In this document: positions 1-1,514 of the stretch, one piece after another
How positions within the stretch are numbered: the stretch's first letter is position 1
Layout: every line of letters begins with the position of its first letter
From: Celeribacter sp. PS-C1
GTDB taxonomy: Bacteria; Pseudomonadota; Alphaproteobacteria; Rhodobacterales; Rhodobacteraceae
Direction of reading: 5' to 3'
NCBI RefSeq assembly: GCF_019429625.1
Contig: NZ_JAHXRW010000006.1
Coordinates: 1-64,000 of the forward strand
DNA: 64,000 bases
Translations under genes and position numbers: made by a program
Notes under the pieces: generated by a model
What the model saw: the letters and a program-made list of their open reading frames with translations, nothing else
Database searches by the model: none
What the model was told of the DNA's origin: nothing

Positions 1-108
1 GACCAGATGGTGCCTGTTGACCTGGGCGGGCTGTCGCTGATACCCCTTGTTTTACTGGAGTTACCAGCTGAGGCAGTGCCTGTAACGGGAAGCTAACTAA
101 AAAGCCAA

Positions 109-193
109 CCGTGTGGGGGCACCATAACCTCAGCTAAAGCATTGGTTTTACTCCAGTTTACAGCAACTGTCTGGAGCCGTAGACCATGTCGGA
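109..193 (+). repeat. 85-bp inverted repeat, left copy (att-like, carries tRNA-Thr 3' end)
   Basis: This stretch is the exact reverse complement of 1370-1454 over all 85 bases. It begins with the last 16 bases of the tRNA-Thr gene including the encoded CCA, and ends with the bases ATGTCGGA, which in the other copy are the integrase start. The stop codon and about 15 C-terminal codons of the integrase are read from this copy on the minus strand. A tRNA 3'-end duplication is the usual mark of a tyrosine-integrase attachment site, but such copies are normally direct repeats at the two ends of an element. Here they are inverted and only about 1.2 kb apart. Confidence 0.9.
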
Positions 194-1377
194 CCACAGA
201 TTGCCTTCATCCACTTCCTGATGACTTCCAAAGGATAACCTGAACCGTAGCTGTGGCCGATCCCGCCCGTCTGCCAACCTCCAATCTGATCCACGATATC
301 GGAAGGACATTCGACGGCCCTCAGCCTGTCACGCATCGCGTGGCGGAAGCCGTGCATGGTGATCGTTTCGCCCGTCAATGTCTTGATCCATTTGTTTAGT
401 GCGGCGCTTGCGGAGTTAGCGCTGGTTGTCTCGCCTCGGTTATAGCTGGGGAAGGCAAATTGAGAGCCTGAGACTTGCGCAAGGACACGCTCTGCGGCCC
501 ACCGCGACAGCCCTTCCAACGGCACGATGCGTTCACTGCCCTTGGTCTTGAGGCTCCGCCACGGATGGGGCTGAATCACCACATGCATGGACCCGTCTGC
601 ATCTGTCTTGATGTCTTCACGCAATATACCCGCAGCTTCGGCGAGGCGGAGACCCGTGTCAGCCACCAAAGCGATTAACCAGCGCCGTTCGTCGTCATGC
701 TTCAGACAACCCTCAGCGATTTTGCCCAGCGAATCCTGCGATACCGGCTGACGCTTAGAGACACCTGCTTGCCTGTCGAAGTACACGTTCGAGAAAGGAT
801 TGGTGAACTCCAGACCCATCTCACTTGCGGCAAAGTTGGTCACAGCGCGTATGGTCCCGAAGATGCGGGACAAGCTACTGCCAGCGAGACCACGTTCAAT
901 GAGCTGATCGCGAAAAGTGTTAGCGTCCATCTTAGTGTAGGTGTCCAAGGGCTTGTCTCCACAAATGTCCAAGACATAGCCACATGCGCGATGCGCCATC
1001 GTGTGGAAGGTTTTGGCCCTCCCCTGCCCTTTGAGGCGCAGGTAGATCCCCACGGCTTCGGAGAGAGTCACTGAGGACGACTGAGTTACCGTTGGCTCCG
1101 CTGCAGGGCTGGACACCCGTGGAAGGTTTGCGGCCTCTCTGAGCATGTGCTGACCAGGCAGCTGCGTGTCTTGCGATCTCAAATGATACCAATACTCGTC
1201 CAGCTGATCGGCTGCACGTCTGGCTCTCGCTTCCGCGATTCTGGCACTGCGGGTTCTCAGTGAATGCACGATGCGGGGGGACGTGTAGTGGTGTTGCAGC
1301 GATTTGGGGACGCGGCGGCTAAAGTAGAAAACACCAGCTTTCACGAAGGTGAATGTGGGTAAAATGGTCTCCGACAT
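148..1377 (-). CDS. Tyrosine recombinase / phage-type integrase
   Basis: This 409-aa protein should catalyse site-specific recombination at the adjacent tRNA gene. The C-terminal half has the tyrosine recombinase signature: Arg in GLRLAEAAG, the HxxR box HGFRH, a GGW motif in place of the usual second His box, and the nucleophile Tyr in the SYGSGY region. The N-terminal part resembles the DUF6538-like and SAM-like core-binding domains common in alphaproteobacterial integrases. The ATG lies inside the right inverted repeat, and the final ~15 residues plus the stop lie inside the left one, so the native tail may have been replaced. The catalytic domain looks complete. Its target is inferred from position. 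Confidence 0.9.
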   Translation of the reverse strand: MSETILPTFTFVKAGVFYFSRRVPKSLQHHYTSPRIVHSLRTRSARIAEARARRAADQLDEYWYHLRSQDTQLPGQHMLREAANLPRVSSPAAEPTVTQSSSVTLSEAVGIYLRLKGQGRAKTFHTMAHRACGYVLDICGDKPLDTYTKMDANTFRDQLIERGLAGSSLSRIFGTIRAVTNFAASEMGLEFTNPFSNVYFDRQAGVSKRQPVSQDSLGKIAEGCLKHDDERRWLIALVADTGLRLAEAAGILREDIKTDADGSMHVVIQPHPWRSLKTKGSERIVPLEGLSRWAAERVLAQVSGSQFAFPSYNRGETTSANSASAALNKWIKTLTGETITMHGFRHAMRDRLRAVECPSDIVDQIGGWQTGGIGHSYGSGYPLEVIRKWMKAICGPTWSTAPDSCCKLE

Positions 1378-1454
1378 GGTCTACGGCTCCAGACAGTTGC
1401 TGTAAACTGGAGTAAAACCAATGCTTTAGCTGAGGTTATGGTGCCCCCACACGG
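1370..1454 (-). repeat. 85-bp inverted repeat, right copy (overlaps tRNA-Thr and integrase start)
   Basis: This is the partner of 109-193, identical over 85 bases in inverted orientation. It covers the last 16 bases of the tRNA-Thr gene with CCA, the 61-bp tRNA-integrase spacer, and the first 8 bases of the integrase ORF. The integrase promoter probably lies here, so the same promoter sequence would also exist in the left copy, pointing into the integrase 3' end as antisense. Recombination between the copies would invert the integrase gene while regenerating both its start and its tail. Confidence 0.9.
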
Positions 1455-1514
1455 ACTCGAACCGCGGACCTACTGATTACAAATCAGTTGCTCTACCAGC
1501 TGAGCTATAGGGGC
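1439..1514 (-). tRNA. tRNA-Thr (anticodon TGT)
   Basis: Read on the minus strand, the sequence folds as a 76-nt tRNA with CCA encoded. The 5' acceptor strand GCCCCTA pairs with TGGGGGC (one G-T), followed by discriminator A and CCA. The D arm is GCTC/GAGC, the anticodon loop is TTTGTAA with anticodon TGT (reads ACA, Thr), and the T arm contains TTCGAGT. The gene is intact. Its 3' end forms part of the inverted repeat next to the integrase, which marks it as the likely integration target. Confidence 0.96.

Follow-up and report, generated by a model that had tools for sequence, protein, structure and literature searches.

We identified, at the start of a 64,000-nt stretch of Celeribacter sp. 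PS-C1 DNA (the window, meaning the whole stretch that was analysed), what would be one half, the one with the integrase, of a small integrative element that targets tRNA genes; its circle would carry two complete inverted attachment sites, and its integrase half or its cargo half could be flipped by the integrase together with homologous recombination. We give this reading about an even chance. DNA comparison indicates that the inverted repeat around the integrase gene is a real, conserved trait of the family; that in the circular form, as joined in silico for 11 relatives, the integrase sits between two inverted attP sites; and that the 85 bp repeated in the window are the portion of the attP repeat still visible beside attL.

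Window positions 109-193 are the exact reverse complement of 1370-1454 (85 nt), and either copy is made up of 16 nt of the tRNA-Thr(tgt) 3′ end, a 61-nt spacer, and the opening 8 nt of the integrase ORF; sequence comparison confirmed the original prediction on both the repeat and its contents, and a perfect inverted repeat of this length is far beyond chance. The tRNA-Thr(tgt) gene, which is the integration target (the attB gene), was called by ARAGORN at 1439-1514 (reverse strand). The attL site at 1370-1454 (reverse strand) consists of the 16-nt tRNA-derived core (1439-1454) and an att arm that extends 8 nt into the integrase ORF; it forms one arm of the inverted repeat, and a comparable arm is found in relatives. 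The ORF at 148-1377 (reverse strand) encodes a tyrosine integrase of 409 aa with DUF6538 and Phage_integrase domain matches, and its C-terminal residues are encoded within the other repeat copy. That copy (109-193, forward strand) is an inverted arm and core (arm′-core′) and belongs to a second attachment site inside the element, attP2; wherever the far end is visible (11 elements) it continues into a segment, X, which is inverted again beside attR at the far end. In the window, X, the remainder of attP2, covers positions 1-108 (forward strand) and is interrupted by the contig start. A GTAGAC box immediately upstream of the integrase ATG (1379-1384, reverse strand) and the box of the inverted copy (179-184, forward strand) are, from motif enrichment, putative arm-type integrase sites. 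X also holds TTGACC (17-22, forward strand), an instance of a conserved TTGAC box that is directed through core′ toward the integrase 3′ end and may be promoter-like or protein-binding; it is followed 16 nt later by GATACC (39-44, forward strand).

Since the window and contig C37 (245,805 bp, in the 40-contig assembly G000) share their first base, only one half of the element is visible, and its own far end lies beyond the contig start. The helicase-like protein of the relative L013 has no match in this genome, and the only other X match found there (C37:234067-234186, 93%) adjoins a different integrase; thus the far end of the window's element was not located. The second match (L010, L060) is a 93% copy of window positions 33-150 (X and core), joined to an integrase (29% identical) whose end meets tRNA-Thr(ggt), and X there interrupts what by eye is an apparent Hint-domain gene; the copy is perhaps a relic of an earlier such element, now hybrid. 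In a relative of the window's genus (L260), the tRNA-Thr(tgt) 3′ end (about 40 nt) is directly repeated 7.4 kb further on, apparently the mark of another island at this site.

Scanning species genomes yielded 47 integrase loci, many of them with an inverted repeat around the integrase by DNA comparison. Matches were found in 32 of 394 genomes of the family (E <= 1e-50), and, at E <= 1e-60 plus alignment, in 29 of 292 genomes of the order, 9 of 337 of the class, and 5 of 398 of the phylum (the sets overlap). The comparison set comprised 106 sources, with part of the matches from the family, order, class, and phylum scans fetched and the duplicates (L013 = L193, L022 = L182, and L026 = L180) removed. 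These sources hold 80 distinct full-length integrases, 64 of which have the repeat; among the 64 full-length relatives with enough flank on both sides it is present in 52 (a count that leaves out the window, which has too little sequence downstream, and the distant L113, which is without the repeat and would make it 52 of 65). The 12 relatives without it are L017, L036, L037, L162, L109, L107, L168, L169, L044, L172, L187, and L185; in L162 only the core (18 nt) remains as an inverted repeat, and L017 retains a stretch of 23 nt. Repeat-bearing integrases diverge down to about 31-46% identity, their hosts include (by record titles) Rhodobacterales, other alphaproteobacteria, and gammaproteobacteria, and the tRNAs adjoining the repeat are Phe, Thr, Leu, Arg, Ser, Gly, and SeC, with Asn once. 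The Asn case (L049:6678-8222, in a Methylocystis MAG) is a distant integrase between two inverted tRNA-Asn genes, with a 70-nt identical repeat common to both. No such repeat was found at any of 46 other tyrosine recombinases from 15 related genomes (50 loci were chosen, 30 of the controls coming from loci listed first, and 4 loci had no usable ORF); these controls are mostly of XerC/D size and only 3 adjoin a called tRNA, so the comparison is weaker than the number 46 suggests.

The original prediction had allowed for an assembly artefact, and two observations would fit one: the window opens at a contig end, and the contigs of 38 of the 80 relatives stop within 1.7 kb after the integrase, as against 5 of 80 that stop within 1.7 kb before it (1 of these 5 is our own cut). 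However, contig ends after the integrase are the expected consequence of the repeat between X and its distal copy, X′, which offers a cause for the recurrent break. The same structure is present in the complete record of the Ruegeria sp. TM1040 megaplasmid, in assemblies of one to four contigs (G045, G513, G785, G463, and G200), and in the independently assembled L013, whose integrase is 91% identical. We reject an artefact for the family on these grounds, together with the 52 of 64 count, and consider one in the window itself extremely improbable.

Complete elements were sought among the 41 arm-bearing loci with at least 400 nt past the repeat; 13 have a second inverted stretch downstream, and 11 were taken as complete (L175 and one L166 element were not), which means that the 11 are selected by the presence of the second X copy. 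These are L019 (Leisingera aquaemixtae), L042 (HIMB30), L061 (Ruegeria sp. TM1040 megaplasmid), L095, L096, L098, L099, L161, L163, L164, and L186. In all of them the order is tRNA, core, arm, integrase, arm′, core′, X, cargo, X′, core, and chromosome, and both ends carry the attL/attR direct repeat (10-25 nt in 10 elements, and at least 60 nt in L186). One option in the original prediction was an invertible cassette of the integrase alone, in contrast to the usual pattern of direct att repeats; the inverted copies are real, but by comparison with relatives the integrase is half of an element with ordinary direct attL and attR. When attL and attR are joined in silico, circles of 3637-13331 bp result; in each, the rejoined attP1 (X′-core-arm) and the internal attP2 form an inverted repeat that runs through the joining point without a break. 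This attP1/attP2 repeat extends over 265-3252 bp with 95.9-100% identity, and is fully identical in 6 of the 11 elements: L042 (327 bp), L163 (386 bp), L061 (1216 bp), L161 (1331 bp), L186 (1023 bp), and L095 (3252 bp); it is 265 bp (99%) in L019, and 334-913 bp (96-99%) in L164, L098, L099, and L096. Because the inverted copy spans the entire attachment region in all 11 elements with a visible far end, a simple scar of nested integration, the other origin that had been proposed, was rejected.

Three relatives of TM1040 provide an empty site for its element, with an intact tRNA-Phe joined directly to the attR-flanking DNA (L270, L271, and L272); a fourth match (L273) contains the attR-flanking DNA and the core, without a full tRNA before them. 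Insertion of this element is precise where examined. Some loci look different: a search of 30-56 kb revealed no distal X′ belonging to the arm-bearing L097, L160, or L165, and a second inverted stretch is missing from about ten loci that have arms and 7.8 kb or more past the repeat. At L166 (G874:C22), two such elements lie in tandem; the left-end core of the first is of tRNA-Arg type, whereas its internal and right-end cores are of tRNA-Phe type, as if the internal site remembered an old target or the element were composite. As to phage forms, three phage records match, none covering 80% of the query; four IMG/VR contigs matched in one scan, and no virion genes (capsid, tail, or terminase) were noticed by eye in the ORF lists of the elements, which are 3.6-13.3 kb long.

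The attachment sites share further features. Across 52 internal sites we counted 71 GTAGAC/GTCTAC boxes, as against 6.9 in shuffles. Most lie either on the X side, 80-140 nt before the core, or 40-100 nt after the core start; at many sites the arm-side GTAGAC box directly abuts the integrase start codon, and we read these boxes as putative arm-type integrase sites. In 29 of 49 sites (2.0 expected) a TTGAC box directed toward the core lies between −125 and −80, and in 1 of 49 one lies in antisense (the count covers sites with arms of at least 60 nt and X of at least 105 nt, L041 and L049 excepted). In most cases a poor −10-like hexamer comes 16 nt after the box (mean best −10 score 8.1, against 7.3 in shuffled sequence); the box may be promoter-like or a protein site, and the promoter reading is weak because the −10 match is poor. 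The two arms within a locus are perfect copies in 41 of 58 loci (arms of at least 70 nt), and a locus's own second arm is closer than the arm of any other locus in 57 of the 58 (L041 ties with L042), while arms of different loci share 60% identity on average; taken together, this suggests that the two copies are homogenised within each element. Folding of the lone 193-nt single strand gave no signal (z −1.0).

Comparison between elements indicates that both halves, integrase and cargo, occur in both orientations in nature. The related gammaproteobacterial elements L041 and L042 occupy a common tRNA-Phe site with alignable flanks, and their integrases are 94% identical, yet the integrase half of L041 is inverted. 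For the cargo, three elements on one contig (G045) share about 4.3-4.4 kb at 88-90% identity; L096 and L098 have it in the same orientation, and L099 has it inverted (at 89-90% identity), with 0 bp collinear. The gene of a helicase-like protein is directed toward the integrase in six loci (L013, L018, L023, L025, L050, and L100) and the opposite way in two (L019 and L061); in L095, each X holds a copy of it. Since X can be long, inversion of the cargo could stem from homologous recombination alone. The integrase is another matter: of the 67 arm-bearing loci, 50 have a tRNA called solely on the integrase start side, 1 (L041) on its end side, and 1 on both sides (L049, where the repeat is the tRNA itself), and the remaining 15 have no called tRNA, some of them showing a tRNA 3′ part by eye. 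The 50:1 bias (two-sided binomial 5e-14, for loci that are not fully independent) implies that integrase flipping is rare or that one state is strongly favoured; two near-identical attP sites are hardly distinguishable by sequence, so the fixed integrase orientation needs explaining. The predicted invertibility of the integrase has comparative support from one locus pair, and the flipped state is rare among sequenced genomes.

The cargo varies among the elements, each of which has one integrase of the DUF6538-type family by protein comparison. A type I restriction-modification system is present in L061, together with a BRO gene in both X copies; L163 encodes MzaB- and MzaC-like proteins and a methyltransferase, and L164 a PrimPol-like protein; L014, whose far end is outside the visible sequence, has a Prim-Pol/DUF3987 protein beside the integrase; and L042 (3.65 kb) has, besides the integrase, only two small ORFs over 90 aa. 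In L061, L095, and L161 a whole ORF is duplicated within the repeat, for example that of BRO or of a 633-aa helicase-like protein. The helicase-like proteins (636-655 aa) of L019 and L013 belong to no Pfam or PHROGs family, and that of L061 has one zinc-finger match below its cut-off; matches to PDB sequences have E-values of 0.29-0.98, AlphaFold models of three sequences have a mean pLDDT of 55.6, and the best Foldseek matches are the SF2 helicases DinG/XPD at a TM of about 0.2, so the helicase assignment, from a low-confidence model, is a lead only. Related proteins of about 525 aa in the cargo halves of L041 (135-1712), L172, L167, and L186 (5516-7090; weakly, 23% identity) are polymerase-like by eye; that of L041 has no Pfam match, and those of L041 and L186 have no PADLOC match. 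The three G045 elements (L096, L098, and L099) have a cargo pair of a 1074-1091 aa protein and a TPR protein, the latter differing in length by copy (664, 754, and 848 aa); in L096 the former has weak ResIII and PbeA-like matches, and the TPR protein has a sulfotransferase domain.

In the reading that we rank first, the integrase would recombine attL with attR for excision and attP1 with attB for integration, the internal attP2 would allow the integrase and homologous recombination to flip either half, and gene conversion would keep the two attP copies alike. In the usual orientation the integrase would lie behind the tRNA, separated from the X′ side of its site, where the promoter-like TTGAC box is; in the flipped orientation it would be rejoined to a complete X-core-arm site, so that flipping could serve as a built-in on/off switch for an element that possibly has no other regulator. 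The orientation bias might then arise because the integrase is active at the complete X-core-arm site and silent behind the tRNA, making the flipped state self-reverting, from selection against integrase transcription into the tRNA, or from integration via a folded single strand with one strand exchanged. Inversion is our first choice because both halves were found flipped; a folded single strand ranks second and amplification third. The folded strand would use attP2 as a splint that pairs with the arm (attL end) and with X′ (attR end) and builds a double-stranded site, with one exchange on a specific strand, much as with the CTXphi attP1/attP2 sites or integron attC; it would form during replication, transformation, or conjugation. 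This would suit the long, near-perfect complementarity of the two attP copies and the near-constant orientation of the integrase, which starts on the tRNA side at 50 of the 51 one-sided loci, a bias that two identical double-stranded attP sites alone would not yield. Published precedents, as far as the excerpts go, are CTXphi, in which two att sites of one strand pair together (PMC5357621), and strand-biased tyrosine-recombinase elements (PMC10214605). On the other hand, the repeats, with lengths of up to 3.2 kb, can reach far past the attachment site, cargo and one integrase half occur in flipped form, and no conjugation or rolling-circle gene was recognised among the scanned proteins (a minority of the cargo ORFs); we hold the folded strand to be rather unlikely.

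Amplification, which we judge unlikely, would proceed by attP inversion in a replicating circle, leading by analogy to double rolling circle replication and a raised copy number before reintegration. The layout resembles that of the yeast 2-micron plasmid (FLP/FRT), where, in the excerpted account, inverted repeats with recombinase target sites halve the circle and two isomers exist (PMC3147054): here too there is a tyrosine recombinase, and an in silico circle halved by inverted repeats with putative integrase targets. The Prim-Pol beside the integrase in L014, the PrimPol-like protein of L164, and the helicase-like protein of several loci make episomal replication plausible; but the 3.65-kb L042 has no replication gene recognised by eye in its ORF list, and there is no close free plasmid form in the plasmid collection, the sole close match being the integrated copy in the megaplasmid. 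Both orientations are known here between elements only, and our elements further differ in being bacterial, in integrating into tRNA genes, and in having a DUF6538-type integrase; we do not carry over the copy-number role of the 2-micron system. Lower still we place a passive inverted copy: the att region would have been duplicated long ago, and homologous recombination would keep the two copies alike, with no function and with inversions as side effects. The very variable length of the X repeat, the whole ORFs duplicated within three of the repeats, and the sufficiency of homologous recombination for cargo inversion would agree with it, whereas conservation of the repeat across such diverged integrases in alpha- and gammaproteobacteria, its coverage of the joining point and of the boxes on both sides of the core, and its absence from the 46 other recombinases argue against it.

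Like other tRNA-targeting integrative elements and genomic islands, these elements integrate at tRNA 3′ ends, have direct attL and attR, and carry an integrase gene beside attL that starts on the tRNA side; they differ in having a second complete, inverted attP beyond the integrase, with arms and X as near-identical inverted repeats. The usual description of a tyrosine integrase includes a single attP. Two att sites that can pair are also found in CTXphi and other IMEX (XerCD) (here the complementarity is read from sequence alone), but our elements have their own integrase, tRNA-gene targets, and repeats of hundreds of bp. Strand-biased circularizing integrative elements (SE), GInt, and Tn554 are also moved by tyrosine recombinases; SE need intA-tfp-intB and srap, and their description, in the excerpt available, has no internal inverted att site (PMC10214605). 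The elements here have one integrase of the family each, and no intA-tfp-intB operon was noticed by eye in their ORF lists. A tyrosine integrase of Thermococcales (archaea) is held responsible, according to an excerpted source, for inversions (PMC5495485). Our case differs in that the inverted site is built into the element itself. The archaeal inversions are reportedly large and chromosomal. Our literature searches (full text, with subscription papers mostly outside their reach and not all queries aimed at the layout) found no integrase between two inverted attP sites, and no paper under the domain name DUF6538; the elements are thus a variant of tRNA-targeting integrative elements with a layout that is apparently undescribed.

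A bolder view, which we hold only tentatively and well below even, is that they form a separate proteobacterial class in which the internal attP, complete and inverted, serves as a splint or as a switch by pairing or recombining with both ends. Excision and copying, either strand-specific or controlled by inversion, would then need only one integrase and a duplicated site, and no genes for an excisionase, a repressor, or replication. If true, the 2-micron plasmid would have a bacterial integrative counterpart, or peel-and-paste transposition would have one based on a tyrosine recombinase; peel-and-paste transposition, lambda Int, and IS605 are familiar points of comparison. An obligatory second site, whether splint, switch, or amplifier, would deserve a class of its own. 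That a widespread family keeps two complete, near-identical inverted attP sites, even in the 3.65-kb L042, points to an unrecognised step of integration, excision, or replication. Given how often contigs break after the integrase, such elements are easily missed in draft genomes; and since at least 2 of the 11 (L061 and L163) carry defence genes, the family may move anti-phage genes among bacteria.
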